A stretch of DNA of 64,000 bases from Actinomyces oris. GTDB lineage: Bacteria; Actinomycetota; Actinomycetes; Actinomycetales; Actinomycetaceae. The translations under genes and the position numbers were made by a program. A model generated the notes under the pieces. That model was given only the letters and a program-made list of their open reading frames with translations, made no database searches and was not told where the DNA came from. The DNA lies in assembly GCF_001937445.1 (NCBI RefSeq), contig NZ_MSKS01000050.1, forward strand, positions 1 to 64,000, read 5' to 3'. How positions within the stretch are numbered: position 1 is the first letter of the stretch; every line of letters starts with the position of its first letter. Shown in pieces: positions 18,944-33,897 of this stretch.

Positions 18944-19803
18944 AGCCCACCGACACTCCTCGTTCGCTGCGCCCGTCAATCCCCGCACGGACCCTGACCA
19001 TCGCGGTCCTGGTCATCGTCCTGGCCTACATGCTCGGCCCGGTCTACTGGCTCATCGTCTCCTCCACCAAGTCCAACTCCGACCTGCTGACCACCTCCGG
19101 GTGGTGGTTCTCCGGACGCAACAGCTTCTCCACCAACTACAGCGCGCTCATGAGCTGGACCCAGGGGCTCTTCTGGCGCTGGATCCTCAACTCCCTGCTC
19201 TACTCGAGCGTCGCCGGGGTGCTGGGCACGCTCCTGTCGGTGTCCGCCGGCTACGGCCTGGCGAAGTTCGAGTTCGCGGGCCGGGGCGCCGTCCAGGTCA
19301 TCATCCTCTCCGGCCTGCTCATGCCCATCGCGCTGCTGACCATCCCGCTGTACCTGGTCCTCGACGCCGTACACCTGACCAACACCGTCTGGTCGATCAT
19401 CCTGCCGTGCTCGGTGAGCCCCTTCGGGGTCTTCCTGGGCCGCGTCTACGCCGACTCCTCGGTGCCCAACGAGATCATCGACTCCGCCCGCATCGACGGG
19501 GCCAGCGAGATCCGCATCTTCTTCACCATCGTGCTGCGGCTGCTCGCACCGGCGATGGTGACCATCTTCCTGTTCATCTTCGTGGCCACCTGGAACAACT
19601 TCTTCCTGCCGCTGATGACCATCAACTCCGCCGAGCTCAAGCCCGTCACCCTGGGGCTCTACGGCATGTCGACCTACTTCAACCCCCAGTACGGGGCGCT
19701 CCTCCAGGGCGCTCTCCTGGGCGTCATCCCCCTGATCGGGCTGTTCCTGGGCCTGCAGCGCTTCTGGCAGTCCGGCCTGGCCGCCGGCGCCGTCAAGGGC
19801 TGA
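18940..19803 (+). CDS. sugar ABC transporter permease (MalG type)
   Basis: 287 residues from GTG 18940, which overlaps the previous stop (GTGA). Six hydrophobic segments, with the coupling loop DSARIDGASEIRIFFTIVLR and the C-terminal half ending LGLQRFWQSGLAAGAVKG, the characteristic end of MalG-type permeases. Partner of the permease at 17990-18943 in the disaccharide importer. A longer open frame upstream overlaps the first permease and is not the gene. Confidence 0.92.
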   Translation: MKPTDTPRSLRPSIPARTLTIAVLVIVLAYMLGPVYWLIVSSTKSNSDLLTTSGWWFSGRNSFSTNYSALMSWTQGLFWRWILNSLLYSSVAGVLGTLLSVSAGYGLAKFEFAGRGAVQVIILSGLLMPIALLTIPLYLVLDAVHLTNTVWSIILPCSVSPFGVFLGRVYADSSVPNEIIDSARIDGASEIRIFFTIVLRLLAPAMVTIFLFIFVATWNNFFLPLMTINSAELKPVTLGLYGMSTYFNPQYGALLQGALLGVIPLIGLFLGLQRFWQSGLAAGAVKG

Positions 19804-19891
19804 GCCCCTCCCACCCAGCACCCTCCCTCACCACCCCCTATCCACCTCGCCGCCCCGTCCCGGGCAACGGCACCTCAGCAGAGGAACCACC

Positions 19892-21310
19892 ATGATCCAC
19901 TTCGGCACCGGCGGCTGGAGAGCCGTGATCGGCGACGAGTTCACCCGCGCCAACGTCAGGCTCCTGACCCAGGGGCTGGCCCACCGCATCCTGAAGGAGG
20001 GCACGTCCGAGCAGGGCGTCGTCATCGGCTACGACCGCCGCTTCCTGTCCGACACCGCCGCCTGGTGGGCCATCGAGGTGCTCGTCGGCAACGGCATCCG
20101 GGTCACCCTCATCGACCGCCCCTCCCCGACCCCCACCACCATGTGGACGGTGCGCCGCCTGGGGGCCGCGTACGGGATGGCCGTGACCGCCTCCCACAAC
20201 CCGGCCCTGTACAACGGCATCAAGATCTTCCTGCCCGGCGGCCGCGACGCCGACCTGAAGGTCACCGACGAGCTCACCGCCTCCCTGCAGGGCCTGACGG
20301 ATGCGGACGTGCGCAGCGTCGAGCCCCATGAGGCCCGATCCAGCGAGCTGGTCACCGTCCAGCGCTCCATCAACTGGTACCTGGACGCCATCATCGACAA
20401 GCTCGACACCGAGACCATCCGCCACGCCCACATGCACATCGTGCTGGACCCCATGTTCGGGGTCTCCGAGACGAGCCTGCAGACGATCCTGCTGACCGCC
20501 CGCTGCCAGGTCGACGTCATCCACGACCGCCACGACCCCCTGTTCGGGGGCCGCATGCCCTCACCCACCGAGGGGACGGTCACCACCCTGCGCAACGCCG
20601 TCGTCGAGTCCGGCGCGGACCTGGGCATCGCCACCGACGGGGACGCGGACCGCCTGGGCATCATTGACGACACCGGCGCCTACCTCACCCCCAACCAGGT
20701 CCTGGTCCTGCTCTACGACTACCTGCTGACCCGCAAGGGCTGGTCGGGGCCGGCCGTGCGCAACATGTCCACCACCCACCTGCTGGACCGGGTCGCGGCC
20801 GCCCACGGGCAGGTCTGCTACGAGGTGCCCGTCGGCTTCAAGTGGATCAGCGCCAAGATGGCCGAGACCGGGGCCGTCATCGGGGGCGAGTCCTCCGGGG
20901 GCCTGACCGTGCGCGGCCACATCCCCGGCAAGGACGGGATCTACGCCGGCTCCCTGCTGGTCGAGGCGGTGGCGGCCTCGGGCAAGCGGCTCTCCGAGCT
21001 CTACGCCGACATCGTGGCCCGGTACGGTGAGCTCGTCATGGTGGAGAACGCCTACGGCTTCACCTCCGAACGGCGCGCCGAGCTTGAGGAGCGCATCTTC
21101 AGCGCCCACGACCTGCCCGCCTTCACCCACGACATCGAGCGCGTCTCCTGGCAGGACGGCTGCAAGGTCTACTTCACCTGCGGCGGCTGGGTGACGATCC
21201 GCTTCTCGGGCACCGAGCCGCTCCTGCGGGTCTTCGCCGAGATGCCCACCGGTGACGAGGCCCGGGCCACCGCGGCCGCCGTCGCGAGCCACTACGGCCT
21301 GGACGCCTGA
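19892..21310 (+). CDS. phosphohexomutase (alpha-D-phosphohexomutase superfamily)
   Basis: 472 residues; GAGGAACC lies just before ATG 19892. All four superfamily motifs are visible: N-terminal FGTGGWRAVIGDEF, active-site serine loop TASHNP, metal-binding DGDADRLG, sugar-binding GGESSGG and the phosphate-binding RFSGTEPLLRV near the C-terminus. It interconverts hexose (or N-acetylhexosamine) 1- and 6-phosphates. Its position in the phosphorylase operon suggests it handles GlcNAc-1-P/GalNAc-1-P or the galactose 1-phosphate derived glucose 1-phosphate; sequence alone does not settle which. A short spacer of 88 nt separates it from the permease. Confidence 0.88.
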   Translation: MIHFGTGGWRAVIGDEFTRANVRLLTQGLAHRILKEGTSEQGVVIGYDRRFLSDTAAWWAIEVLVGNGIRVTLIDRPSPTPTTMWTVRRLGAAYGMAVTASHNPALYNGIKIFLPGGRDADLKVTDELTASLQGLTDADVRSVEPHEARSSELVTVQRSINWYLDAIIDKLDTETIRHAHMHIVLDPMFGVSETSLQTILLTARCQVDVIHDRHDPLFGGRMPSPTEGTVTTLRNAVVESGADLGIATDGDADRLGIIDDTGAYLTPNQVLVLLYDYLLTRKGWSGPAVRNMSTTHLLDRVAAAHGQVCYEVPVGFKWISAKMAETGAVIGGESSGGLTVRGHIPGKDGIYAGSLLVEAVAASGKRLSELYADIVARYGELVMVENAYGFTSERRAELEERIFSAHDLPAFTHDIERVSWQDGCKVYFTCGGWVTIRFSGTEPLLRVFAEMPTGDEARATAAAVASHYGLDA

Positions 21311-21332
21311 GACGGGCAGGAGGAAGGAACCC

Positions 21333-22175
21333 ATGACAGACGCGATCACTGAGACGGTGAGCGGCGCGGCGGAGCGCACCCGTGTCGCCGTCGTCCTGGC
21401 CCGGGGCCTGGGCACACGCATGCGGGCGAGCAGCGCGGCCGGCTCCGGCCTGACCTCCCAGCAGGCCACGGCCGCGGCCAGCGGCTACAAGGCCCTCATG
21501 CCCATCGGCGAGCACCGGCTCATCGACTACAGCCTCTCGGCCCTGGTCGACGCCGGGATCGAGCGGGCCGTCCTGGTCGTGGGGCCCGAGCACGAGGACT
21601 TCCGCCGCCACGTCGACTCCCTGGAGCTCAGCCGGCTCACGATCGACCTGGCCGTCCAGGTCAACCCCTTGGGGACGGCCGACGCCGTCCTGTCCGCCGA
21701 GGCCGCCGTGGGCGGGGAGCCCTTCCTCATGGTCAACGGGGACAACTACTACCCCCGTCAGGTGCTGCGCGACCTGGCCCGCCACCGGGGCAACGCCCTG
21801 GCCGGTTTCGACCGTGCCGCCCTGGTGGCCGAGTCCAACATCCCCGCCGAGCGGATCGCCGCCTTCGCCCTCGTGCGCGCCCGCGACGGGGCGCTGGAGG
21901 AGATCGTGGAGAAGCCCTCAGCGGAGGTGGTTCGGGCCGCCGGTCCCCACGCCCCGGTGTCGATGAACGCCTTCCGGTTCACCCCGGAGATCTTCGCCGC
22001 CTGCCGCCGCATCACCCCCTCGCCGCGCGGCGAGCTGGAGATCGTCGACGCCGTGCGCGCCCTGCCCGGCCCGGTCTCGGTCCTCTCTGCGACCGGCGGG
22101 GTCCTGGACCTGTCGCGGCGTGAGGACATCGCCGAGGTCGAGGCCCGCCTGTCCAGGACGGAGGTGTCGCTGTGA
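21333..22175 (+). CDS. sugar-1-phosphate nucleotidyltransferase
   Basis: 280 residues; GGAGGAAGG ends about 4 nt before ATG 21333. A nucleotidyl-transferase fold with the NTP-binding loop LARGLGTRMRAS (usual form LAxGxGTRMxP), lysine in GYKALMPIGEHRLIDYSL, the metal-site VNGDNYYP (usual xxGDxxx) and EIVEKPS. The loop is followed by an unusual Ser/Ala/Gln-rich insertion of about 20 residues before GYKALMP. It should activate a sugar 1-phosphate with UTP or dTTP. In this operon the candidates are galactose 1-phosphate released by the phosphorylase or a HexNAc 1-phosphate; it may replace the GalT step of the bifidobacterial pathway (inference). Overlaps the next gene by GTGA. Confidence 0.8.
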   Translation: MTDAITETVSGAAERTRVAVVLARGLGTRMRASSAAGSGLTSQQATAAASGYKALMPIGEHRLIDYSLSALVDAGIERAVLVVGPEHEDFRRHVDSLELSRLTIDLAVQVNPLGTADAVLSAEAAVGGEPFLMVNGDNYYPRQVLRDLARHRGNALAGFDRAALVAESNIPAERIAAFALVRARDGALEEIVEKPSAEVVRAAGPHAPVSMNAFRFTPEIFAACRRITPSPRGELEIVDAVRALPGPVSVLSATGGVLDLSRREDIAEVEARLSRTEVSL

Positions 22176-23437
22176 GCCGGGAGACGCACGGGGCGTTGAG
22201 TGAGGCGCCCGAGGAGACCGCCTGGCGGGTGCCCGGGCGCGTCGAGGTGCTGGGCAAGCACACCGACTACGCCGGCGGCTCGGTCCTGGTCGGCGCCGTC
22301 GACCGGGCGATCACGGCGCGGGCGCGTCGCGTGGCGGGGCCGCCGGGGTCCCTGACCGCCACCACGGACGGCGGTGATCCGGTCACCCTGCGCGCCGGGG
22401 TGGACCCGGGTCTGGAGCCGGGCCACTGGGGCCGCTACCTTCAGACGGTGCTGGACCGCCTCACCCTCAACTTCGGGGCGGGAGCCGCGGCCCACCTGTC
22501 CGTCTCCTCGGACCTGCCGCCGGCCTCCGGGATGAGCTCGTCCTCCGCGCTGGTGTGCGCCACGGCCCTGGCCCTGGCCTCCCTCAACGGCTGGGACGAG
22601 GATCCCCGGTGGATCGATTCGATGCCCGACCGACTGTCCCTGGCCGGCTACCTCGCCGCCGTGGAGGGTGGACGGGCGTGGCGGGACCTGCCGGGGACCA
22701 GCGGGGTGGGCACTCGCGGCGGGAGCGAGGACCACACCGGCATGCTGTGCGGTGCCCAGGACCGGCTGCTCCTGGCCGGGTTCGACCCGATACGCATCGA
22801 TCAGACCATCTCCTTCCCCGCCCAGTGGGCGCTCGTCGTCGGCGTGAGCGGGGTGCTGGCCCACAAGACCGGTGCGGCCCTGGAGGACTACAACCGCGGG
22901 CCGAGTACCGTCCAGGCGGTGCTGGCCAGGTGGAATGAGTCCACCGGACGCACTGACGCCTCCCTGGCCGGTGCGGTCAGGCACCTGGTCGGGGAGGCCA
23001 CCGGCGAGCAGGCGGCCGGTGACCCGGCCCTGAAGGACCTGCTGGGGCTGTGCGAGCCCGGCTACGAGAGGCAGCGGATCGAGCAGTTCCTCATCGAGTC
23101 CCTCGTCCTGGTTCCCACCGGTGCCCGGATGATCGCCGCGGCCGACCCGGGGGTGGGTGAGGTCCTCCACCGCTCCCAGGAGCTGGCCGACCGCGGCCTG
23201 TGCAACCAGGTGCCGCAGACTCGGCTCATGGTGTCGCTGGCCCGTCAGGCGGGCGCCATCGGTGCCTCCTCCTTCGGCGCCGGGTGGGGCGGGTCGGTGT
23301 ACGCCCTGGTGCGGGCCGACGACGCTGAGGCCTTCGCCGAGCAGTGGATCGGGGCCTACCGGGACCGTGAGCCGGGCGCCGAGCAGGCCGCGGTGATCGT
23401 CACCAGGCCGGGGCCGGGGGCCTGCCGGCTGCTCTGA
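22172..23437 (+). CDS. GHMP kinase, galactokinase-like with GKHTDY variant
   Basis: 421 residues from GTG 22172, coupled to the previous stop (GTGA) with GGAGGTG upstream. Three GHMP motifs are present: motif 1 PGRVEVLGKHTDYAGG (~18-33), motif 2 LPPASGMSSSSALVCA (~113-128) and motif 3 GASSFGAGWGGSVYAL near the C-terminus. In true galactokinases motif 1 reads GxxNLIGEHTDYN; here Glu is Lys and Asn is Glu. That glutamate contacts the sugar, so the acceptor is probably not plain galactose. Given the phosphorylase products, N-acetylgalactosamine or N-acetylglucosamine is a reasonable guess, making it a non-homologous substitute for NahK. Last gene of the operon; convergent with arcA 19 nt on. Confidence 0.82.
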   Translation: MSRETHGALSEAPEETAWRVPGRVEVLGKHTDYAGGSVLVGAVDRAITARARRVAGPPGSLTATTDGGDPVTLRAGVDPGLEPGHWGRYLQTVLDRLTLNFGAGAAAHLSVSSDLPPASGMSSSSALVCATALALASLNGWDEDPRWIDSMPDRLSLAGYLAAVEGGRAWRDLPGTSGVGTRGGSEDHTGMLCGAQDRLLLAGFDPIRIDQTISFPAQWALVVGVSGVLAHKTGAALEDYNRGPSTVQAVLARWNESTGRTDASLAGAVRHLVGEATGEQAAGDPALKDLLGLCEPGYERQRIEQFLIESLVLVPTGARMIAAADPGVGEVLHRSQELADRGLCNQVPQTRLMVSLARQAGAIGASSFGAGWGGSVYALVRADDAEAFAEQWIGAYRDREPGAEQAAVIVTRPGPGACRLL

Positions 23438-23456
23438 GCGCCCCGACCGGCCGGGT

Positions 23457-24800
23457 TCACACCGCGTCGCGGGTGACGGGGCAGGTCATGCAGTGCGAGC
23501 CGCCGCGGCCGCGCACGAGCTCGACGCCGGGGGTCTCGACGACCTCGATGCCGGCCTTGCGCAGGGCGTCGTTGGCGCGCTGGTTGTGGGCGTAGCCGAT
23601 GACACGCCCGGGGGCCAGGGCCACGACGTTGCAGGAGTCCCGGGCGAGCTCGCGCAGGGCCTCGGCCTCGTCGGAGGCGCCGGGGCTGATGACGCGGAAG
23701 GAGTCGATGCCGGCGGCGCGGGCGAGGACCGCGTCCATCTGAGAGCCGTCGTGGACCGTCACCTGGAGGGACCGCCCGGTGGCTGCGGGCTCGATCTCCA
23801 CGGTGGTGACCTCGGTGAAGCCGGGGAAGCGCAGGTAGGTGTCGGGGCTGACCATCGTCATGAGGGTGTCCAGGTGCATGACGGCCTCGAGCTGGGTGTA
23901 GAAGGCGGCGTCGGGCATGTGGACGCCGATGACCCGGTCGGCCACGCCGGAGGCGAAGAGCTGGGAGGCCAGGCGCTCCACGCCCGCGGCGGTGGAGCGG
24001 TGGGTCAGGCCCATGACGAGGGTCCGGTTACCCAGGATCTGGAAGTCGCCGCCCTCGATGGTCGAGGCGGCCGAGACCCGCCCCACCTCGCGCCACAGGC
24101 GGGCGTCCGGGCCGTCGGAGCCGGCGAGCTCGGCCAGGCGCGGGCCGAAGGCCGGGTGGTGGCGGTAGACGGCCTCGTAGCCGATGGCCTCACGACGGCG
24201 CGGCTCCAGGGCCATGGAGTTGACCGAGACCCCGCCGTAGAGCCAGGCCGACGCGTCGCGGGTGAAGAGCAGGTTGGGCAGCGGGGTGACGACGAACGGC
24301 CCCTCCAGGGTGGACAGGTAGGTGGAGGAGAACAGGTCGCACCCCTCGGAGGAGCTGAGGCGCTCGCGCAGTTCGGTGCGGGTGATGCCGCCCAGGAGCA
24401 CCTCGGCGAGGTCGGCGTCGGGCAGGGACTGGAAGTAGTCGATGAGCAGCTCGGAGGCGGAGACGCCGACGACGTCGGGACCGATGGCCTCGTCCAGGAC
24501 CAGCCGGCGGGCCTCGGGGACGGCCAGGACCTCGGTGAACAGCTCGCGGAAGTCGTGGACGATGACGCCCTCGGAGCGCAGGATCGCGGTGAAGGCGTCG
24601 TGCTCGGCCTGGGCCCGGGGGACGTTGAGGGCGTCGTCGAAGAGCAGGGAGTCGGCGTTGATGGGGGTCAGGCGGGCGATCTCCCCGCCGGGACGGTGGA
24701 CGATCACCTCGCGCAGGGCACCGGTCTCGGAGTCGATTCGCCCCCCGCCCTCGGCCACGGGAACGAAGGGACGGCTGGCGGTCGCACCGGTCTGTGTCAT
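23457..24800 (-). CDS. arcA: arginine deiminase
   Basis: 447 residues. Hydrolyses arginine to citrulline and ammonia. Motifs: GALREVIVHRPGGE at the N-terminus, NLLFTRDASAWLYGGV, EGGDFQILGNRTLVMGLTHR, the catalytic-site region HLDTLMTMVSPD, and the active-site cysteine in GRGGSHCMTCP at the very C-terminus. Start ATG 24800 is chosen because TACGCT sits 6 nt upstream with no Shine-Dalgarno; the frame remains open for about 400 nt more but without homology. No ornithine carbamoyltransferase, carbamate kinase or antiporter gene is adjacent, so this is a solitary arcA, perhaps used for acid protection by ammonia or for citrulline production. Confidence 0.95.
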   Translation of the reverse strand: MTQTGATASRPFVPVAEGGGRIDSETGALREVIVHRPGGEIARLTPINADSLLFDDALNVPRAQAEHDAFTAILRSEGVIVHDFRELFTEVLAVPEARRLVLDEAIGPDVVGVSASELLIDYFQSLPDADLAEVLLGGITRTELRERLSSSEGCDLFSSTYLSTLEGPFVVTPLPNLLFTRDASAWLYGGVSVNSMALEPRRREAIGYEAVYRHHPAFGPRLAELAGSDGPDARLWREVGRVSAASTIEGGDFQILGNRTLVMGLTHRSTAAGVERLASQLFASGVADRVIGVHMPDAAFYTQLEAVMHLDTLMTMVSPDTYLRFPGFTEVTTVEIEPAATGRSLQVTVHDGSQMDAVLARAAGIDSFRVISPGASDEAEALRELARDSCNVVALAPGRVIGYAHNQRANDALRKAGIEVVETPGVELVRGRGGSHCMTCPVTRDAV

Positions 24801-24806
24801 GGGCAC

Positions 24807-24812
24807 AGCGTA
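24807..24812 (-). promoter_or_regulatory. arcA: -10 element TACGCT for leaderless arcA
   Basis: Minus strand TACGCT-GTGCCC-ATG. Same geometry and almost the same bases as menC and menB. No ribosome-binding site. Confidence 0.45.
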
Positions 24813-24931
24813 GTCGGAGGTCAGGGGTGTCTCCGCCCGGTCGCCGGCAGGAATGGTCCGCACCACCGCCGTCGCCCGCCATCGACAGGTTTTGTTGAGC
24901 GAAGAATCAACCGGGACGGCGAAGAACGCAG

Positions 24932-24959
24932 TTGTCGCAAACCACAGGAATGGTAAGAT
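24932..24959 (+). promoter_or_regulatory. sigma-70-type promoter of the small secreted peptide gene
   Basis: TTGTCG (24932-24937), 16 nt, TAAGAT (24954-24959) in a locally AT-rich stretch. Expected start near 24966, leaving a ~30-nt leader with GGAG before ATG 24998. Confidence 0.55.
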
Positions 24960-24997
24960 AAATTGTTCATAACACCCCCGAGACAGGAGTTCCCTCC

Positions 24998-25192
24998 ATG
25001 AAATCTGTCGTCCGCATCTCCCTTGTCGCCCTGCTCCTGGCGGGCTTCGCCGCGCCGGCCAGCGCCGCGCCGGCCACCGCCCCCGCACGACACGACGACT
25101 CAGCAAGCTTCTTCGGGAAGCCCTACTACGACTTCTGCGTCTTCCCGCCCTCCATGTTGTGCGACTGGTCGAAGAACCGCTGGTACTCCTGA
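24998..25192 (+). CDS. small secreted two-cysteine peptide
   Basis: 64 residues; CAGGAG about 9 nt upstream of ATG 24998, its own promoter and a strong terminator directly downstream, so this is a genuine monocistronic gene. A classical Sec signal peptide (MKSVVRISLVALLLAGFAAP, then ASA|AP) would release a ~41-residue peptide. The mature part starts Ala/Pro-rich, then FFGKPYYDF, CVFPPSMLC and DWSKNRWYS: very aromatic, with two cysteines eight apart that could form a disulfide loop. I recognise no family. A two-component system follows 110 nt later. Candidates: bacteriocin-like peptide, peptide pheromone, or a small cell-surface factor. None is proven. Confidence 0.75.
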   Translation: MKSVVRISLVALLLAGFAAPASAAPATAPARHDDSASFFGKPYYDFCVFPPSMLCDWSKNRWYS

Positions 25193-25200
25193 GAAATGTC

Positions 25201-25243
25201 GCCGCCATCCCTAAGCCCGCCCCTTAGGGATGGCGGCATTTTT
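25201..25243 (+). terminator. strong intrinsic terminator after the peptide gene
   Basis: A perfect 15-bp stem (GCCGCCATCCCTAAG at 25201-25215 with its complement at 25223-25237), a 7-nt loop and then ATTTTT. It starts 8 nt after the peptide stop codon and separates it from the histidine kinase gene. Confidence 0.9.
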
Positions 25244-25302
25244 CCGCCACCAAATACCCAAGATAAGCCTCAATCACAACATCGGCACCCACCTCAAGGA
25301 CC

Positions 25303-26517
25303 ATGCAGAACGATAGTTTCCTATCACGACTCTGGATGCGACACCAGAGGTTTTTGCCACGCCTGAGGCGAGCCACTCTCATTTCATTCATCATCCCCCT
25401 CATCCTTTTGGATGCCTTCACCTACCTCACTCTCAAAGATAACATAAATAATGCAATAGTTATTGGAGAAATATTTCAGATACTCTCGTTCCTCCCGTAT
25501 GTCTACACAAAAGATCGACGAGTCGGGATGGCCACCTTTTCCATCGCACTCCTCATCATCTTTTCCGTTGCAGGATCACGCCTGGCGTGGGCATGGGTTC
25601 TTGTATACATTATAGTCGCCGACCTCACGGCAGCAAAGAAATCCAAACTCGCCCTTATCCAGCTCTCCGTGTTCTTTCTGGCGCAGCTCATTGCAGGGAT
25701 CCCTTTCCTTCCCGTGACAGTCTGGACAGTATTCTGGGGAACCCTGTTCGCCTCCCTCGGGCTCCTGATCCGCAATACCAAAGACCGTTTGGAGGAGATG
25801 CAGCGGGAGGCGGAGCGTTCCAAGGAGATTGCTGCCGAGCTCATTCAGCAGCTGCGCCGCGATATCGCCGACAGCCTCCATGACGACCTGGCAGCCGACC
25901 TCACCCGCATGCTCATCATCTCCCGCTCCATCAGGCTCCCCCTCGGCGATGACCGCGACCGCGTCCTCGACCTGCAGGACCGGACCCAGCAGGCCCTCGC
26001 CCACCTGCGCCTGCTCATCCACAACCTCGCCGTCTCCCAGGGGCCGCCCAAGGAGGAGCCCACCCTTCAGGAGATCGTCGACTCCAGCGTCTCCACGCTG
26101 GCCCAGCGCGAGATCGTTCTGGACGCCGACCTCGACGGCATCGAGAGGATTCCGGCGCTGCACCGCTCCGAGCTCGGCCGGCTCCTGGTCGCCTTCATCC
26201 GCGAGAACACCCTCAACGCCCTCAAGTACAACTTCCCCCGCGACCTTGTCTCCCTCTTCGTGGAGCAGGAGCAGGACACCCTTTTCATCAGCTTCAGCTC
26301 ACCCTGGCATGATCAGAAGGTGCCCGAGGAGATGCACGGGGGGTACGGTTTATGGGCCCTCCAAGACCGGTTCGAGAATGCCGGGGGTTCCTTGAGCTCG
26401 AACCGGATCGGAGCCTCCTGGACCGTTCTCGCCAGTCTTCCCTGGAACGAGATCGCCACACCAACCACTAATGCGAGATCCCTCATGTCGCCACCGGACG
26501 GAGCCGCTTATGCCTAG
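25303..26517 (+). CDS. sensor histidine kinase (HisKA_3/NarL-DesK type)
   Basis: 404 residues; AAGGA lies 4 nt upstream of ATG 25303. Five to six hydrophobic segments span about 25-165, with almost no extracytoplasmic domain. A coiled stretch (NTKDRLEEMQREAERSKEIAAEL) leads to the dimerisation helix with phospho-acceptor H193 in DSLHDDLAADL. The ATPase domain has ENTLNALKY as N-box and GGYGLWALQDRFENAGG as G-box. Partner of the LuxR-type response regulator, whose ATG overlaps the 3' end. The membrane part is encoded by DNA of roughly 42% GC (25381-25560 counted by eye), whereas the kinase domain is about 65-70%, suggesting a swapped sensor domain. The signal is unknown; an intramembrane or peptide cue is plausible. 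Confidence 0.88.
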   Translation: MQNDSFLSRLWMRHQRFLPRLRRATLISFIIPLILLDAFTYLTLKDNINNAIVIGEIFQILSFLPYVYTKDRRVGMATFSIALLIIFSVAGSRLAWAWVLVYIIVADLTAAKKSKLALIQLSVFFLAQLIAGIPFLPVTVWTVFWGTLFASLGLLIRNTKDRLEEMQREAERSKEIAAELIQQLRRDIADSLHDDLAADLTRMLIISRSIRLPLGDDRDRVLDLQDRTQQALAHLRLLIHNLAVSQGPPKEEPTLQEIVDSSVSTLAQREIVLDADLDGIERIPALHRSELGRLLVAFIRENTLNALKYNFPRDLVSLFVEQEQDTLFISFSSPWHDQKVPEEMHGGYGLWALQDRFENAGGSLSSNRIGASWTVLASLPWNEIATPTTNARSLMSPPDGAAYA

Positions 26518-27181
26518 TCACACCCTGCGTTCCCTGCGAGTCCTCATCGTTGATGACGACCCGCTCATTCGCACCACCTTCGCCGAACAGCTCGATTCGC
26601 AGCGGGCCATTACCGTCGTCGCCGCCGCCTCCGGCGGACGGCAGGCCATCAGTCTGCTCATGACCGGGCAGCAGCCGATCGACGTCGTCCTGCTGGACAG
26701 CGACATGCCGGAGATGGATGGTGCCCAGACCGCCAGAGCGATCTATGAGCGCTTCCCCAGGATGCCCATTGTCATGTTCACCGTCTTCAGCCGTGACGAG
26801 ATGCTCGCCGAGGCCCTGGCCGAGGGCGTCAACGGCTTCATCACCAAGGACGAGAGCACCGAGAACGTCGCTGCGGCGCTGCTGCGCGCCAGCCGTGGCG
26901 AGCCCGTCATGTCCTCACGCCCCACGAAGATGCTCGTCAACGCCTACCAGTCCGAGCAGAAGCGCGCCACCGCGGAGGCCCGCATCCAGGAGCTGGTCAA
27001 CGAGCTGCCGCCCCGCCTCCGAGACATCTACACCTGCCTCCTGGAGGGGCTGACCAACCGGCGCATCGCCCGCAAGCTCGGCATCTCTGAGAACACCGTG
27101 CGCATCTACGTCTCCGAGGTCCTCCACCGCCTCGGCCACACCTCGCGCACCGAGCTCATCGCCGCGGCCCTGGGGAACTAG
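26510..27181 (+). CDS. LuxR/NarL-family response regulator
   Basis: 223 residues; ATG 26510 overlaps the kinase stop by 8 nt. Receiver domain with acidic pair DDD (about 15-17), phospho-acceptor D63 in VVLLDSDMPEMDG, switch Thr in MFTVFSRDE and Lys in FITKDES. The C-terminal LuxR helix-turn-helix is LTNRRIARKLGISENTVRIY. Forms a two-component system with the kinase upstream. Targets are not shown by the sequence; the peptide gene at 24998 and menB downstream (66 nt later, separate leaderless promoter) are the nearest candidates. Confidence 0.93.
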   Translation: MPSHTLRSLRVLIVDDDPLIRTTFAEQLDSQRAITVVAAASGGRQAISLLMTGQQPIDVVLLDSDMPEMDGAQTARAIYERFPRMPIVMFTVFSRDEMLAEALAEGVNGFITKDESTENVAAALLRASRGEPVMSSRPTKMLVNAYQSEQKRATAEARIQELVNELPPRLRDIYTCLLEGLTNRRIARKLGISENTVRIYVSEVLHRLGHTSRTELIAAALGN

Positions 27182-27234
27182 GGGCCACGGCCACCGCACC
27201 GGCACCCAGGGGTGGGGTCGAGCCCCGGTGGCCC

Positions 27235-27240
27235 TACGCT
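27235..27240 (+). promoter_or_regulatory. menB: -10 element TACGCT for leaderless menB
   Basis: TACGCT-GAGGCC-ATG 27247. The hexamer is identical to that of arcA and equally spaced. Confidence 0.45.
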
Positions 27241-27246
27241 GAGGCC

Positions 27247-28326
27247 ATGAACACCACCTCCGTTCACCCGTTGCCGCGCCGAGTCTCAGAGATCTTCTCC
27301 CCCGCCCGCTGGCGGGAGGTGTCCGGTTTCCCCCATGCCGAGGCCGGCACGGACCCCTCCCAGCAGCGGGCGCAGGCTCTCACGGATATCACCTACCACA
27401 GGGGCTGCGTCCGGGGCGAGAACGGCGCTTGGCTCCGGGACCTGCCGGTAGTCCGGGTGGCTTTCAACCGGCCCGAGGTGCGTAACGCCTTCCGCCCCCG
27501 CACCGTCGACGAGCTCTACCGGGTCCTGGACCACGCGCGCATGAGCGGCGACGTCGGCGCCGTCATCCTCACCGGCAACGGCCCCTCCCCGCGCGACGGC
27601 GGCTGGGCCTTCTCCTCCGGCGGCGACCAGCGCATCCGCGGTCGGGACGGCTACCGCTACGAGCAGGAGGACTCGCCACAGTCCCCGACGGCCGCAGGCG
27701 AGTCTGAGGACCGCGCCTACAGCCACGAGGCCGACGTCGCCGCCGCCCAGGCCCGCCTCGACACCGCACGGGCCGGCCGGCTCCACATCCTGGAGGTTCA
27801 GCGCCTCATCCGCACCATGCCCAAGGCGGTCATCGCCGCCGTCCCGGGCTGGGCCGCCGGTGGCGGTCACAGTCTCAACGTCGTGTGCGACCTGTCGCTG
27901 GCCTCGATCGAGCACGCGCGCTTCAAGCAGACCGACGCCGATGTCGGCAGCTTCGACGCCGGCTACGGCTCCGCGCTCCTGGCCCGGCAGGTCGGGGACA
28001 AGCGGGCCCGCGAGATCTTCTTCCTGGCCCGCACCTACGACGCCGTCACCGCCGAGCGCTGGGGCGTCGTCAATGAGGCGGTCCCCCACGCCGAGCTCGA
28101 GGAACGGGCCCTGGAGTACGCGGCCACGGTGGCGGGCAAGTCCCCGCAGGCCATCCGCATGCTCAAGCTCGCCTTCAACCTGGCCGACGACGGCTTGGCC
28201 GGCCAGCAGGTCTTCGCCGGCGAGGCCACGCGCCTGGCCTACATGACTGACGAGGCCGTGGAGGGGCGCGATGCATTCCTTCAGCGCCGTACCCCCGACT
28301 GGTCATCCTTCCCGTACTACTTCTGA
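27247..28326 (+). CDS. menB: 1,4-dihydroxy-2-naphthoyl-CoA synthase
   Basis: 359 residues, longer than the ~290 of enteric MenB, as common in actinobacteria. A crotonase-fold enzyme closing the naphthoate ring in menaquinone synthesis. Visible: VAFNRPEVRNAFRPRTVDEL, AVILTGNGPSP, oxyanion-hole SGGDQRIRG, VPGWAAGGGHSLNVVCDLS and the MenB-specific DADVGSFDAGYGSALLARQVG. A C-terminal swap-helix ends DEAVEGRDAFLQRR.PDW. The extra length comes from an N-terminal extension (~45 residues) and an insertion after GRDGYRYEQEDS. It stands apart from menD/menC, with menA about 3.3 kb downstream. Confidence 0.95.
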   Translation: MNTTSVHPLPRRVSEIFSPARWREVSGFPHAEAGTDPSQQRAQALTDITYHRGCVRGENGAWLRDLPVVRVAFNRPEVRNAFRPRTVDELYRVLDHARMSGDVGAVILTGNGPSPRDGGWAFSSGGDQRIRGRDGYRYEQEDSPQSPTAAGESEDRAYSHEADVAAAQARLDTARAGRLHILEVQRLIRTMPKAVIAAVPGWAAGGGHSLNVVCDLSLASIEHARFKQTDADVGSFDAGYGSALLARQVGDKRAREIFFLARTYDAVTAERWGVVNEAVPHAELEERALEYAATVAGKSPQAIRMLKLAFNLADDGLAGQQVFAGEATRLAYMTDEAVEGRDAFLQRRTPDWSSFPYYF

Positions 28327-28879
28327 CCATTTCTGACTATGAGCCGTCAGCGCGACCGCCTATGAGGACTCCGGGGCGATATCCCAAGAGCATTCAGAAT
28401 TGTGGCGAGGACCGGAATGAAGAGAATATTCCGAAAGGAACTCGCACCCTCGACATTCCCCTCCGATTCCCGCCGGAGTCGGAAATAGAAGTGCACATTG
28501 TTGCCCGCTCATCGCGACGATGACCGCCCTCGTCACCCGCCACGTCCGCCCAGCCTCAGAAAACCGCGGAATGACAGGAAAACGCCTCAGAGGCACTGAC
28601 ATCCATCAGCATCGAGGCCGGCCTCTTCGAAGCGACTTTACTGTTATCTACATCACGATTTGGGTGCTCATGTCACCCCGCGCCACCACACCCCGCCCCT
28701 CGGTTCGCCGCCAGGTGGAGTCCCCGGTGAGGTCGGCCGAGGGTGTGGGGCTCGGCGAGCCGGTCATGGTGCCGGCCTGGCCGGCACCCTCGTGAGTCTC
28801 GTCGCGAAGGCGCACTCCGGGGCGGGCGCCGATCACCTGCAGGCCGGAGGCGGTGTAGTCGGGCAGATGGCACTGGAGC
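28327..28879. other. intergenic region without convincing gene
   Basis: About 550 nt after menB. Short frames lack ribosome-binding sites. A small dyad CGGAAT/ATTCCG lies at 28413-28433. The composition of 28400-28660 is less GC-rich than the surroundings, consistent with decayed or accessory DNA. Confidence 0.4.
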
Positions 28880-29130
28880 GCGGCCGGGACGTCCAGGATC
28901 AGCTCCACGCCCAGCCCGAGCATGACGATGCCGATCCAGCGGATGAGGTCCTGCGGCAGGTGGAGCAGGCTCAGCAGGATAGACCCCAGGAGCGCCAAGA
29001 GCGTGAAACCGACCACAAAGTAGGTGACCGCGAGGCGGGGGTGGAAGCGGGAGGCGAAGCCGCCGTCGGCCCCCTTGTCACCACCGCGTGCGCCCCGCGC
29101 TTCTGCGGAGAGGAGGATGACGGGGAGCAC
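28880..29130 (-). pseudogene. remnant of a CcdA/DipZ-type cytochrome c biogenesis membrane protein
   Basis: The minus-strand frame contains [11 protein letters not shown], then a hydrophobic segment [40 protein letters not shown] and ILDVP. This order (LPV...GFTL..LLGS.LL..LGLPQDLLR..GI..L...G) is that of the second and third membrane helices of the CcdA/DsbD-like domain in DipZ. The N-terminal helix with the PCVLP motif and everything after the third helix are missing, and the frame then runs on into unrelated sequence. I read it as a decayed fragment, not a gene. Homology is by eye only. Confidence 0.45.
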
Positions 29131-29431
29131 GGGAGGAACGCGCGGGAGATACCCGCGATGAGCTCTCCAGTAGCCCGATGGCCACGAGACTCGAGACGGT
29201 TGTCACGATACTTCACCCATTCGGTCAGTTTCTTGTTGCTAGTCTCGAAAGAGGTTCGGAGCCACCGGCAACGGGGATTGTCGAACAACCGCATAGCCGT
29301 CTATGACGATCATCACTCGTGACGGGCGTCGTCAAGCTCTTCCTCGAGCTCCATGGACGACGTCGTCTCCGGACCCGCAAGAGCGGGCCATCCCGCACTG
29401 ATACTGCACCAGCAAGCGCATAGGAGATCTC

Positions 29432-29926
29432 ATGCGATTCACCGCTACACGTGCCAAGACCCTCGCCACCTCGCTCCTCATCGTCACCGCCGGACTCGGT
29501 CTGGCGGCCTGCTCGGGCTCCGGTTCGAGCGACTCGACCACTCCCGCCACCAACCAGACCGCGGGCAAGACCAGCGACGGTGGGGCCGCCACGCCCAGCG
29601 CTGACAGCAAGACGACCGGTGGCACCAACGGCGGAAGCGCTCACCCCACCGTCTCTCAGGGCCAGCAGCCCGGCGGCGACCACCAGCAGGGTGGTGCGGA
29701 CAGCAGCGCCGGCACCCAGCAGGGTGGCCAGCAGCCTGGCGGCGACAACCAGCCCGGTGGCCAGCAGGGCGGCCAGCAGCAGGGTGGCTCCATTCAGGGC
29801 GACAACCAGCCCGGCGGCCAGCACCAGGAAGGACAGCAGCCCGGACAGCAGGGTGGCCAGCAGCAGGGCGGTGCGGACAGCAGCGCCGGCACCCAGCAGG
29901 GTGGCCAGCAGGGCGGCGGCAACTGA
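29432..29926 (+). CDS. Gln/Gly-rich repeat lipoprotein
   Basis: 164 residues; ATAGGAG 5 nt upstream of ATG 29432. The signal has a lipobox, ending GLGLAAC (Cys ~27). The mature part is low complexity: a Ser/Thr-rich stalk, then GGQQ/PGGDNQ repeats. A 15-residue unit (GGADSSAGTQQGGQQ) occurs twice, encoded by two 51-bp repeats with one mismatch. No catalytic domain. Probably a surface-exposed, intrinsically disordered lipoprotein anchored in the membrane. A strong hairpin terminator follows. Repeat number is likely to vary between strains. Confidence 0.75.
   Translation: MRFTATRAKTLATSLLIVTAGLGLAACSGSGSSDSTTPATNQTAGKTSDGGAATPSADSKTTGGTNGGSAHPTVSQGQQPGGDHQQGGADSSAGTQQGGQQPGGDNQPGGQQGGQQQGGSIQGDNQPGGQHQEGQQPGQQGGQQQGGADSSAGTQQGGQQGGGN
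29684..29734 (+). repeat. 51-bp coding repeat, copy 1
   Basis: Identical to 29861-29911 except for one base; encodes the GGADSSAGTQQGGQQ unit of the lipoprotein. Confidence 0.85.
29861..29911 (+). repeat. 51-bp coding repeat, copy 2
   Basis: Second copy of the unit at 29684-29734, 177 nt (59 codons) apart, in frame. Confidence 0.85.
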
Positions 29927-29951
29927 GCCGGCAGACCTGCACGACCCGTCT

Positions 29952-30003
29952 GGCGAGGGCCTCGCGGCAGCACCGACTGCGGCGAGGCCCTCGCCGGCTT
30001 TTC
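29952..30003 (+). terminator. intrinsic terminator after the repeat lipoprotein
   Basis: A perfect 14-bp stem, GGCGAGGGCCTCGC (29952-29965) with its complement at 29982-29995, followed by GGCTTTTC. The 16-nt loop itself can form a small GCAG/CTGC hairpin. Starts 26 nt after the stop codon. Confidence 0.75.
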
Positions 30004-30205
30004 TCCACGGTTCGGCGCCTCGGCCGCGCCTCGGCGCAGCGGAGGGGACCGGAGGGGATGATGGCAACGTTGCGGCCCGGCTGCCTCCCATGCCAGGCTT
30101 CCGGGAGGCCGGGTCGGTGGACAACGGACGACTAAGACACCGTTCGATCTGCAAGCCGTCCACCGACCCGGTTCCCGTGCATGTTCCCAACCTCTGGAGA
30201 CACCC

Positions 30206-30787
30206 ATGCTGTCCACCCTGCTGAGGAGGACCGACCCAACGCGGCGTCGAGTCGGAACCGCGATCGTCGTCGGCATCATCGGAGGCCTCTTCTCCGCCAT
30301 CGTCAAGTTCGGCTGGGAGGTCCCCTTCCCGCCCCGCACCCCGGAGCGCAACGCCACCAACCCGCCCCAGCAGCTCCTGGAGCAGCTGGGGATGAGCCCG
30401 GAGCAGTCCCACACCGGCGTCACCTTCAACGGCAACGAGGGGCTGCCGATCTACTCCTTCATCATCCACTTCAGCTTCGCGATCGTCTTCGCCGTCTTCT
30501 ACTGCGTCATGGCGGAGTACTACAAGTCGATCACGCTGTGGCAGGGGGCCGCCTTCGGTCTGCTCGTGTGGGTGGGGGCGCACCTGGTGCTCATGCCGCT
30601 GACGGGCACGGTCCCCTCGCCCTTCCCGTGGGTCGACGGTGGGCAGACCTGGGCGGAGCACTTCTCCGAGGCGCTGGGGCACGTCATCTGGTTGTGGTCG
30701 ATTGAGCTCGTGCGCCGGGACGTGCGCAACCGCATCACCCACCAGCCCGACCCGTGGGTTCCGCTCGACGCCGAACCGGCCCGCTGA
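30206..30787 (+). CDS. YagU-family (DUF1440) inner membrane protein
   Basis: 193 residues; TGGAG about 7 nt upstream of ATG 30206. Family pattern: an N-terminal helix GIIGGLFSAIVKFGWEVPFP, then PPRTPERNATNPP, HFSFAIVFAVFYCVMAEYY, a helix GLLVWVGAHLVLMPLTG, PSPFPW and a C-terminal EALGHVIWLWSIELVRRD. These are the hallmarks of YagU-type proteins, which in Escherichia coli are linked to acid resistance. Three or four transmembrane helices. Stand-alone gene between the lipoprotein and a palindromic repeat. Confidence 0.85.
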   Translation: MLSTLLRRTDPTRRRVGTAIVVGIIGGLFSAIVKFGWEVPFPPRTPERNATNPPQQLLEQLGMSPEQSHTGVTFNGNEGLPIYSFIIHFSFAIVFAVFYCVMAEYYKSITLWQGAAFGLLVWVGAHLVLMPLTGTVPSPFPWVDGGQTWAEHFSEALGHVIWLWSIELVRRDVRNRITHQPDPWVPLDAEPAR

Positions 30788-30978
30788 GCCCGCAGGGCTT
30801 GGTGGTTCTCTCATAGGTGCGGCGGTCGGCATCCGCCAGTACTCCACGAGGGTCGGGGGCTCTGTGCTGTCTCCTCACTTCTGAGACATGTGACTGACAT
30901 GGCTTCTGAGGCGCTCGTTCGGGCGGGAACCCTGGGCAGGCTGCGGTCCTGGAGGCGGGGCCGGGTGCGTAGGCCGCC

Positions 30979-31050
30979 GTCGCGTTCGTACCTTAGGTCT
31001 CGCGTTCGGGGGTTAAGGGTACGAACCGGAGGCCTACCCTACGAACGCGA
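30979..31050 (-). repeat. dispersed intergenic palindromic repeat, copy A
   Basis: Read on the minus strand this ~72-nt stretch matches the plus strand at 43119-43192 at roughly 90% identity, including TTCGTAGGGTAGG, CCGGTTCGTACCCT, AACCCCCGAACGCGAG and TAAGGTACGA. Its second half is itself an imperfect hairpin (GTTCGTACCCTTA with TAAGGTACGAAC). It provides the last codons and the stop of the pseudogene at 31039-31650. Confidence 0.75.
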
Positions 31051-31650
31051 GGCGAGAAGGCGCGGCCAGGAGTCGTGCTGCTCCTCGAAGGCCTCGGCCA
31101 GCGCCAGACGGTCCGCGAGTGGGAGGCCCGCCACCGGAACAGAGCGATCGCCCTGAACCACCCCGGCCTCGACGAATCCGGCCCACTCCTCCATGGCCGT
31201 CAGATGCAGCGCCAAGTTGTGGGTGTCGGGAGGTGTGAAGCCGTGGATGTCATAGGGCGCCTCCTGGAGGTCCACACGCGCCGTCTCGCGAAAGGCCACC
31301 CAGGGATGTCCTTGCGCCACCACCAGCATCCGATGAACCGGAAGCTGTGCACGCCCGAGGCGTTGAACACGGTGAAGCTCAGCAGTCGGTAGGCCATGAG
31401 AGAGGCCACAACCAGGCCACCGAGGACATAGGCACCCGTCATGGTCTCACTGGAGGCCCCTGTCAGTACCAGAAGGACTCCAGCGGCGATTCCTGCGGTG
31501 GCAGCCAGGAGCGGGAACATGACGAGATGAAGGAGGATGTATCCCGGGTTGCGCAGCGCCCGTGAAGACAAGGAAGCGCCGCTCGATCCAGCGGGATGGA
31601 ACCATCGCCCAGTCGATGTACTTCGTTGACGCCCTGAGAGCTCCCCGCAT
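31039..31650 (-). pseudogene. membrane protein pseudogene with two frameshifts
   Basis: Three overlapping minus-strand frames form one protein when joined. The start MRGALRASTKYIDWAMVPSR at 31650 has GGGAGAG upstream. After RRFLVFTG (~31557) the hydrophobic sequence continues in another frame as LRNPGYILLHLVMFPLLAA and VLGGLVVASLMAYRLLSFTV. At about 31322, after SFRFI, it returns to the first frame as MLVVAQGHPWVAFRETARVD and ends at 31039. Both shifts are single-base and compensate each other, but the first one alone leads to a stop. The joined product would be ~200 residues with two to three membrane helices. I do not recognise the family. Sequencing error is the alternative. Confidence 0.65.
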
Positions 31651-31677
31651 GAGATTGACGCTCTCCCGAGCCCGGGC

Positions 31678-32658
31678 TCACAGGGTGATGATGATGGTGG
31701 CTGCAGCGAAGACGACACCGTAGGCCAGCTCCAGCAGGCCCGCATCACGCAGGGAGGCGATGAGATCACGCCCCCGGGCGCCGGAGCGCACTGGCGCGGT
31801 GGCCCGCCGCACCAGCGGCAGGAGCAGGAGCGGCGCCGCCAACGCGATGACCAGGGTCAGCAGCGGGCTGATGTGTCCCCCGCCGTCGACGGGGCTGGCT
31901 GATCCGGTCTCGCGCGCCCACACCAGGGCGACGGCCCCCAGCAGCAGGGGCACGTGAAGCATGAGGGAGAAGGCGCGTCGGGCGCCCCCCTCCCCCAGGC
32001 GGACCGCCAGGGTCATCTTGCCGTGGGCGGGGTCGGTGTCGATGTCGCGCAGGTTGTTGACCATGAGCAGGGAGCAGGCGAGCAGGCCGATCCCGCAGGC
32101 CGAGGGCCACAGCCACCCCGGCAGCGAGCCGGTCTGGACGTAGGTGGTGCCCACCGTGGCCACCAGGCCGAAGAAGATGAAGACGAAGACCTCCCCCAGG
32201 CCGGCGTAGCCGTAGGGGTGGGAGCCTCCGGTGTAGAACCATGCGGCCGCGATCGCTGCGGCTCCGACGACCAGCAGCCACCACTGGCCGCTGAGGACCA
32301 CGAGGGCCAGCCCCAGGAGGGCTCCGAGCCCGAAGCAGCCGAAGGCGGCGAGCTTGACGGCACGGGGGGCGACCTGCCCGGAGGCGGTCAGGCGCGGCGG
32401 CCCGGTGCGATCGTCGTCGGTGCCGCGCACGCCGTCGGAGTAGTCATTGGCCAGGTTGCAGCCGATCTGCAGCGCCAAGGCCACGCCCGCGGCCAGCAGG
32501 CTCCGCACCACTGAGAGCTCCCCCATCGCGGCGGCCGCCCCGGCGCCCAGGATGACGGGGGCGACGGCGGCCGGCAGGGTGCGCAGACGCACCACCTCCC
32601 CCCAGCTGGTGGCGCGGGGACCGCTGTCCTGCGCGTGCTCGCCGTTCTCGCCGCTCAC
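31678..32658 (-). CDS. menA: 1,4-dihydroxy-2-naphthoate polyprenyltransferase
   Basis: 326 residues from GTG 32658, with GGAGGAAG 4 nt upstream. A UbiA-superfamily integral membrane enzyme that attaches the polyprenyl chain to DHNA. The first Asp-rich motif is NDYSDGVRGTDDDR (Mg-diphosphate binding), followed by PPRLTASGQV; the second Asp-rich region is NNLRDIDTDPAHGKMTLAVR. Eight to nine hydrophobic segments. Divergent from the ADP-ribosylglycohydrolase gene; TACCCT on the minus strand at about 32691-32696 and TAGGGT on the plus strand are the same bases read both ways, a possible shared promoter core. Confidence 0.95.
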   Translation of the reverse strand: MSGENGEHAQDSGPRATSWGEVVRLRTLPAAVAPVILGAGAAAAMGELSVVRSLLAAGVALALQIGCNLANDYSDGVRGTDDDRTGPPRLTASGQVAPRAVKLAAFGCFGLGALLGLALVVLSGQWWLLVVGAAAIAAAWFYTGGSHPYGYAGLGEVFVFIFFGLVATVGTTYVQTGSLPGWLWPSACGIGLLACSLLMVNNLRDIDTDPAHGKMTLAVRLGEGGARRAFSLMLHVPLLLGAVALVWARETGSASPVDGGGHISPLLTLVIALAAPLLLLPLVRRATAPVRSGARGRDLIASLRDAGLLELAYGVVFAAATIIITL

Positions 32659-32796
32659 GGCTTCCTCCGATCCTCTCGCAGTCCTCTAGGGTAGGCGGCA
32701 GTGACCCTACCAGCGCCGTGGCCGACCCGCGTCGGGCGCCTGAGCCACACCTCGGCCGGTGAGGCAGCCGGCATCGTGATCGCCAGAAGGACCTCC

Positions 32797-33897
32797 GTGA
32801 GACACCCCGATCCCCGCCCTCGCACTCCTTCATCCATGTCTGGGCCCGCGGCGGCTGAGCCCCCGGCACGCGAACGCGCCCTCGGAGCGCTGACCGGGCT
32901 GGCCCTTGGCGACGCGCTGGGGATGCCCACCCAGTCGATGAGCCCAACACAGATCCGCCGGTACTACGGCGAGATCACTGGGCTGCGCGACGCCGTCGCC
33001 GAGCAGCCCATCGCCCCCTCAGTGCCTGCCGGCAGCATCACGGACGACACTGAGCAGGCTCTCATCCTGGCCGGTCTCCTCATCGACGGTGGCGGCCGCA
33101 TCGACCCCCACCAGCTCGCCGAAGCCCTCCTGCGCTGGGAGGACGATATGCGCGCCCGCGGGTCCCTGGACCTGCTGGGACCTTCCACCAAGCTCGCCCT
33201 GGAGCAGGTGCGCGCCGGGGCGGACCCGCACTGCACCGGCAGACAGGGCACCACCAACGGCGCCGCGATGCGGGTGGCTCCAGTCGGCATCGCTTTCTCC
33301 GTGAGCGCCGACGGCGACGCGCTGGCCCGGGCCGTTCAGGCCTCCTGCCTGGTCACCCACGACACCCGGCAGGGCTTCGAGGCCGCAGGTCTCCTCGCCG
33401 CAGCGGTCAGCGCTGCCATCGACGGCGTCGACGCGGCGGGTGCGTTGGGGGCGGCGCTGGACTTCGTGGCCGCCCACCCCGAGGCGGGCCACTGGACGGA
33501 GAAGGCCTCCGTTGCCGCCCGCACCCGCCTGGCCCTGGAGACGAGTCGCGACCTGCACGGGGAGGCCCTGGCCGAGCATCTGCGCACCTACGTCGGAACC
33601 TCGGTGGAGTCGGCCGAGTCGGTCCCCTGCGCGCTGGTGATCATGCGGGAGTTCGCGCAGCGGCCCCTGGACGGGCTGTGCTTCGCCGCCGAGCTCGGGG
33701 GAGATACTGACACCATTGCCGCGATGGCCGGTGCGGTCCTGGGTGCGAGCGCGCCCCGTCTTCTTCCAGTCGAGCTGGTCGATCGGGTGCTGGAGCGCTC
33801 CGGCCTGAGGCTCGAGCCGGTCTGTGAGGCGCTGCTGGCGCTGCGCGGCGGCAGCGGGCACTGTCAGCAAGACGCTCCGGAGCAGAGGCGACCATGA
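32797..33897 (+). CDS. ADP-ribosylglycohydrolase (DraG/ARH family)
   Basis: 366 residues from GTG 32797, chosen for AAGGA 5 nt upstream; the frame is open back to GTG 32701 and an internal ATG at 32836 lacks a site. Dinuclear-metal motifs are present: GLALGDALGMPTQ near the N-terminus, SITDDTEQALILAG (metal-binding TDDT), the TTNGAAMRVAPVG block and the C-terminal GGDTDTIAAMAGAVLGA. It removes ADP-ribose from a protein or small-molecule substrate. The next gene, a PfkB-type sugar kinase, overlaps by ATGA. The same pairing occurs in E. coli yegU-yegV, suggesting a nucleoside or ADP-ribose salvage pathway rather than control of nitrogenase. Confidence 0.88.
   Translation: MRHPDPRPRTPSSMSGPAAAEPPARERALGALTGLALGDALGMPTQSMSPTQIRRYYGEITGLRDAVAEQPIAPSVPAGSITDDTEQALILAGLLIDGGGRIDPHQLAEALLRWEDDMRARGSLDLLGPSTKLALEQVRAGADPHCTGRQGTTNGAAMRVAPVGIAFSVSADGDALARAVQASCLVTHDTRQGFEAAGLLAAAVSAAIDGVDAAGALGAALDFVAAHPEAGHWTEKASVAARTRLALETSRDLHGEALAEHLRTYVGTSVESAESVPCALVIMREFAQRPLDGLCFAAELGGDTDTIAAMAGAVLGASAPRLLPVELVDRVLERSGLRLEPVCEALLALRGGSGHCQQDAPEQRRP

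Follow-up and report, generated by a model that had tools for sequence, protein, structure and literature searches.

Three adjacent genes of Actinomyces oris, encoding a short, probably exported peptide, a membrane-embedded histidine kinase and a LuxR-type response regulator, are likely, judging from their sequences and those of their relatives, to form a two-component system with a peptide pheromone for which no catalogued counterpart was found. The peptide and its presumptive receptor change together from genome to genome, and this points to a hitherto undescribed form of chemical signalling between Actinomyces. If such systems run as a class through the family Actinomycetaceae, they would represent a peptide quorum-sensing family outside the Firmicutes which has no dedicated processing or export gene. 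Because peptide and receptor change in step, matched and mismatched pairs are available ready-made, and cell-to-cell signalling in Actinomyces, which PMC5478893 describes as key colonisers of oral biofilms, is directly testable with synthetic peptides.

The three genes lie on the forward strand of the 64,000 nucleotide stretch of DNA that was analysed (the window). The first (24998..25192) encodes a precursor of 64 amino acids with a predicted Sec leader (residues 1-23) and a mature part (residues 24-64) that carries the loop CVFPPSMLC. The histidine kinase gene (25303..26517, 404 amino acids) begins 110 nt downstream of the stop codon of the peptide gene, and its product consists of a variable six-helix membrane sensor (residues 18-157 approximately) followed by a conserved DesK-like core with His193. 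The kinase stop codon overlaps the start of the regulator gene in the sequence ATGCCTAG (26510-26517); the regulator (26510..27181, 223 amino acids, start codon of our choosing) is of the NarL/LuxR type and has Response_reg and GerE domains. The arrangement reported in the initial annotation, a peptide gene with a polytopic kinase and a LuxR-type regulator 110 nt further on, was recovered with every part in its place. Pfam and NCBIfam identify the flanking genes in the window as arcA (arginine deiminase), which is upstream and divergent, and menB, which is downstream; beyond these neighbours is galK, labelled by eye.

The leader of 23 residues is Ala-rich and, as read by eye, of the Sec type, and it ends in PASAA in most of the 12 loci of the genus that carry the peptide gene. 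Cleavage after residue 23, predicted by eye from the Ala-X-Ala motif, would release a product of 41 amino acids with CVFPPSMLC, and inspection by eye revealed no second membrane anchor. The looped peptide is probably secreted via Sec, and the cysteine pair of the mature part probably forms a disulfide loop. Such a bond in an exported peptide is plausible because the thiol-disulfide oxidoreductase MdbA occurs in actinobacteria; this enzyme and the assembly of A. oris pili are the subjects of PMC5478893 and PMC9974433. A ribosome site, AGGAGTT, precedes the gene and is present in 12/12 aligned loci. No family in Pfam or NCBIfam matched the peptide at E <= 0.001, in line with the initial annotation, in which no known family was recognised for it. 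That this is a real gene and not a spurious frame, as was also held, is borne out by retention of the frame in 12 genomes, by a dN/dS of 0.06 for the leader among five of them and by the presence of an adjacent kinase gene in all 12.

Between the peptide and kinase genes stands an intrinsic terminator (25201..25237, forward strand) that has a 15-bp stem, as first described, and a run of T behind it; folding of the 110-nt spacer gives z = -4.8, and none of 200 shuffled sequences (0/200) was equally stable. In the aligned relatives, similar stem-loops can be made out by eye. Because this terminator stands between them, peptide and kinase genes are not a simple operon here, which counts against the pheromone reading. 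The claim that the peptide gene has its own promoter held in part: the positions of a promoter-like TTGTCG-N16-TAAGAT (24932..24959, forward strand) align across the 12 loci of the genus, although some bases differ, but a consensus scan made no call.

Upstream of this promoter the sequence TTTTGTTGAG is identical in 12/12 genus loci. A conserved element, TTTTGTTGAGcgaaGAATCAAC (24890..24911, forward strand), contains the inverted repeat GTTGA-N8-TCAAC, the TCAAC arm of which is exact in 8/12 loci, and is a candidate regulator box through which autoinduction may occur. A strict-box search of the whole genome found a single exact TTTTGTTGAGNNNNGAAYCA site, at the peptide promoter. The four other hits had three mismatches each, compared with five hits for a backwards control, and a genome-wide regulon based on the strict box was rejected; the search found no target gene in the genome, which counts against the pheromone reading. 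The gene arcA was likewise set aside as a target of the regulator because the box persists in loci where a full arcA was not found beside the module, namely G005, G025 and G060, and G065, which has an arcA remnant.

The kinase of the window is 88-90% identical to that of three A. oris records and 76% identical to that of A. naeslundii. Its AlphaFold model (36 sequences; mean pLDDT 78, pTM 0.45) has six hydrophobic helices joined by short loops, the last of which continues into the long helix of the kinase core. A core profile of the 36 homologues is closest to DesK among solved structures (7ssj, E 1.4e-17), and the Foldseek matches were to kinase cores in general, DesK included. Residues H193, N305 and K308 are invariant in the 36 homologues; with its catalytic core homologous to that of DesK and its H and N boxes conserved, the protein can be placed among the DesK-like (HPK7) kinases. 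HisKA_3 (PF07730) did not match the window kinase at E <= 0.001, although it does match distant members such as those of G178 and G152. The most variable stretch is the predicted first outer loop (identity 0.21), but one of the predicted inner loops varies too (0.30), and the excess of outer over inner variability in the sensor is not beyond chance (16/139 circular shifts), which counts against the pheromone reading.

A profile built from nine peptides was searched in 49 genomes of the genus and matched 12 of them (E <= 1.2e-28), with four weak matches (E 0.001-0.004) left out of this count. The kinase was found in 18/49 at E <= 1e-20, and the 12 closest kinases (68-100% identity) are those of exactly the 12 peptide-bearing genomes; the G026 kinase matches as two pieces, of 96 and 56% identity, due to a frameshift. 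A peptide occurring without the kinase in most relatives had been named at the outset as an argument against the proposal; the reverse was seen, as the peptide gene precedes an adjacent kinase in 12/12 peptide-bearing genomes of the genus. Eight genomes carry a type I peptide, which mostly reads ...DWCIFPPSxWC..., three carry a type II peptide (...YPGxCLINxxVCYEPWGKxWxxW) and G060 has a third variant (CLLFPPAPAC). The frame of the G026 kinase (L069, G026:C1:2484000-2500000) is broken near codon 248, reflecting either a broken gene or a sequencing error, and the kinase of G011:C12 (L077) is likewise split into two frames.

Over the 12 genomes, conservation is seen in the leader, the kinase core and the regulator, but not in the mature peptide or the membrane domain of the kinase. 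Mean pairwise identity is 0.82 for the leader, 0.95 for the regulator and 0.89 for MenB (0.87 for GalK in 11 genomes and 0.91 for the kinase core without G026), compared to 0.43 for the mature core and 0.49 for the sensor (aa 1-167). Distances between core peptides correlate with sensor distances at r 0.86, but hardly with those of the kinase (0.29) or MenB (0.17); the kinase-core values of this comparison are lowered by a gap in G026. In a partial Mantel test given MenB, core peptide and sensor correlate at r 0.90 (0.88 with gaps set aside; 0/5000 permutations each), and the association persists without type II (nine genomes; 0.79, 4/5000) and in the eight type I genomes alone (0.67, 19/5000), whereas peptide and kinase core give 0.32 in 11 genomes (422/5000). 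This pattern, a joint divergence of mature peptide and sensor that leader and kinase core do not share, favours the pheromone or quorum function proposed in the initial annotation.

Neighbouring genes recombine jointly and membrane segments are often variable, so the pattern might also arise from coincidental neighbours, a variable secreted peptide and a membrane kinase under relaxed constraint that are co-exchanged by linkage. The plain correlations over all 12 genomes make this very improbable: between peptide core and the four quarters of the sensor they are flat (0.77-0.82) and do not decay, and at the border with the kinase they drop, to -0.05, 0.36, 0.00 and 0.32 in its four parts. The step argues for function because plain linkage should decay smoothly. 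The leader, which is nearest to the core, correlates with it less than the sensor does (0.45 over all 12 and -0.03 within type I), and the pairing of peptide and kinase recurs in other genera but is rare at other HisKA_3 kinases (1/30). The step is blurred when type II is left out, with values of 0.65-0.73 for the sensor, 0.26-0.54 for the kinase (0.54 at aa 228-287) and 0.55 for the regulator, which then correlates as well; this counts against the pheromone reading. Exchange of peptide and sensor as one block, without binding, could be a partial alternative to function.

Peptide and sensor are marked by raised synonymous divergence and not by dN/dS above 1. Among five type I genomes, dS is 0.28 for the mature peptide, 0.47 for the sensor and 0.19 for the leader, compared to 0.14-0.16 for kinase, regulator, MenB and GalK. 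The corresponding dN/dS values are 0.06 (leader), 0.61 (mature peptide), 0.24 (sensor), 0.11 (kinase), 0.06 (regulator), 0.15 (MenB) and 0.26 (GalK), and over eight type I genomes 0.33 for the mature peptide and 0.27 for the sensor against 0.33 for GalK. That both ratios are below 1, and that of the sensor is not above that of GalK, counts against the pheromone reading.

One genome, G026, is a mosaic in which peptide and sensor are of type II, like those of G010 and G001. Over its positions 200-800, identity is 0.70-0.92 with G010 and G001, compared with 0.34-0.55 for the oris-type genomes; from approximately 1250 on it is mostly closer to the oris group, and G001 is its nearest relative upstream of the peptide. 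Co-divergence of peptide and sensor would also be expected if the exported peptide were a non-diffusible co-sensor that stays at the surface and sets or blocks the kinase, so that the cue sensed is the environment and not cell density. DesK senses membrane state and is nearest to the kinase core by sequence, and by this analogy a non-peptide signal for the kinase is possible. However, type-level diversification and a mosaic genome are typical of pherotypes, and the peptide has an Ala-X-Ala leader end and, by eye, no second anchor, so we regard a surface-bound co-sensor as unlikely and prefer a diffusible pheromone.

The pairing extends beyond the genus. A kinase profile searched against 213 genomes of the family (E <= 1e-25) matched 38, which contain 46 separate kinase loci; all were examined, and the number is a lower bound, as an order-wide search gave further members. 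The criterion for a peptide was an ORF of 35-130 amino acids with a hydrophobic part and C-x6-8-C with a Pro near its end, ending between -1100 and +30 of the kinase match; it was set after the first examples were known and its background was drawn from those same loci. Such frames lie upstream of 30/46 family kinase loci (10/12 oris-type and 20/34 others), compared with 14 in 1.54 Mb of strand elsewhere in the loci, or 0.010 expected per search window, and the short frames which the initial annotation proposed to look for upstream of related kinases thus do recur. Typical peptide ends are WLCKLHPTLPLC, WICRVFPNLPYC, WICTFFPSFPSC and PWCTLLPSSWLC. A likely peptide was seen by eye at six more loci (G026, G010, G194, the second locus of G004, G011 C2 and G084, where the frame has no visible leader). 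A regulator frame follows 14/18 kinases checked, and was found at two more loci. Ten of the 46 loci have no usable peptide, which counts against the pheromone reading; three of these are accounted for by a frameshifted remnant (G085), a contig edge (G177) and a truncated kinase (G004), and the others are G031, G081, G096, G088, G146, G072 and G113. Two or three of the 46 are close to contig ends (L124, L130, L137).

As a control, the same criterion was applied to 30 further HisKA_3 kinases, drawn from seven genomes; six of these kinases have less than 500 nt of upstream DNA. Only one kinase qualified (L188, FCYWLPQYC), and it looks like another member. The order-wide kinase search (396 genomes) matched 13 genomes, 10 of them Actinomycetaceae, and of the nine additional loci two have a peptide by eye (L147 and L155); the three loci outside the family gave no convincing peptide. 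Several loci have features of their own. In L122 (G085:C6:181000-200000) the peptide remnant appears to be frameshifted into the kinase frame and reads ACFYIRICHS, compared to ACFLYPDMPQC in G084. In L125 (G175:C6:89000-108000) two related kinases close together follow one peptide, suggesting a tandem duplication. In L152 (G276, from another family of the order) a short frame without a clear leader, at -247 to -107 from a weakly related kinase, ends in DPTWLCEVFGICD and is possibly a distant or leaderless relative.

The genes around the modules were inspected for a possible output. No candidate target beside the module was seen among the ORFs at 18000-34000 of the window, and the neighbours of the other 11 oris-type loci were checked for marker genes only. 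Near eight distant modules there are secreted precursors of 169-216 amino acids with hydrophobic, mostly cysteine-bearing C-termini, at offsets from the kinase of -1418 (L076), -1808 (L116), +1614 (L117), +1849 (L128), -1180 (L135), +1831 (L133), -1332 (L127) and +2506 (L136). They form homologous pairs in G030/G175 and in G004/G076, and both G030 and G175 have the precursor gene first, followed in turn by those for the membrane protein, the peptide, the kinase and the regulator. Six of the eight had only weak, unconvincing matches in a Pfam/NCBIfam scan; we judge all eight to be bacteriocin-like, and they possibly constitute an undescribed bacteriocin group. Of the 49 genomes of the genus, four gave a match to the G004 precursor (E <= 0.01), and all four are outside the 12 oris-type genomes.

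Two paralogous membrane proteins are encoded at 6831-7403 and 8579-9163 of the window, 16-18 kb from the module. They are homologous to the membrane protein that lies between precursor and peptide in G030, and also to a gene upstream of the peptide in G013, G029 and G011. They were considered as targets, but the sole link is this homology to a gene beside distant modules. G060 and G025 have further homologues of the G030 protein, 5.6-7.1 kb upstream of their kinases.

These genes bear on whether the peptide is itself a bacteriocin, which kinase and regulator sense for immunity or induction. The peptide is small and aromatic, with two cysteines and its own strong terminator; precursors of that look occur with membrane proteins near several distant modules, and G030-type homologues are present near the G060 and G025 kinases and in the window. 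We nevertheless consider this improbable, since the variation of the peptide tracks the sensor, the window module is adjoined by arcA and menB, and the bacteriocin-like precursors, where present, are additional genes. Of the two functions first suggested, the evidence, all of it comparative, supports the pheromone, while the bacteriocin half is weaker, with no candidate target among the ORFs at 18000-34000.

The gene set, conservation pattern, co-divergence, mosaic genome and family-wide pairing read from the sequences are consistent with a pheromone mechanism of the following kind. The precursor would be exported via Sec and cleaved by signal peptidase, giving a short, aromatic product in which the cysteine pair probably closes a small disulfide loop. 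This peptide would bind the sensor domain, embedded in the membrane, of the adjacent DesK-like kinase, and the kinase would control phosphorylation of the LuxR-type regulator. Through the conserved box at the promoter of the peptide gene the regulator would probably exert feedback, and it would act on further genes too; peptide and sensor would diversify and move together as pherotypes. Whether this extends to a family-wide class is evenly balanced in our view: its members would be looped pheromones with a disulfide and a core of approximately W-x-C-x3-P-x4-C, exported via Sec and sensed by DesK-like receptors with six helices. Species would exchange them as pherotype cassettes, and in some lineages they would be linked to secreted proteins that resemble bacteriocins.

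Among the matches listed in searches of the open-access literature (titles and the beginnings of abstracts), no peptide signal is described for Actinomyces and there is no account of this module. A small peptide gene, its export predicted by eye, beside genes for a membrane kinase and a regulator, together with co-variation of mature peptide and sensor over a conserved kinase core, are features of peptide-pheromone two-component systems. On the features compared, the module appears to work like a pherotype-forming system and to stand outside ComQXPA, agr and the double-glycine systems; by analogy, its conservation pattern corresponds to the pherotype signature of agr and ComQXPA. The agr systems of Staphylococcus and others have a hypervariable peptide and sensor, a conserved kinase core and specificity groups. 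The module shares the hypervariable peptide and sensor, the conserved core and, putatively, the specificity groups, but its regulator has Response_reg and GerE domains whereas that of agr is of the LytTR type, and no AgrB-like gene was noticed beside it (neighbours arcA and menB; wider window ORFs by eye). DesK/DesR resembles it in the kinase core; however, the membrane domain of the module diverges with the adjacent peptide, the gene for which belongs to the locus. PlnA, CSP and BlpC are inducing peptides with double-glycine leaders that act with a two-component system. The module likewise combines a peptide with a two-component system, but its leader is of the Sec type and no peptidase-type ABC transporter was noticed next to it in the window. 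It differs from ComQXPA in having no ComQ isoprenyl transferase beside it (arcA and menB being the window neighbours, with galK beyond), in a peptide with a Sec-type leader and a two-cysteine loop instead of a prenylated Trp, and in the absence of ComX (PF05952) homology in that peptide (Pfam, E <= 0.001). According to the census in PMC4008528, in which ComQXPA was found in Firmicutes only, that system has, like the module, a small variable peptide gene, a polytopic kinase with a variable membrane domain and a conserved cytoplasmic part, a LuxR/GerE-type regulator after the kinase, and pherotypes.
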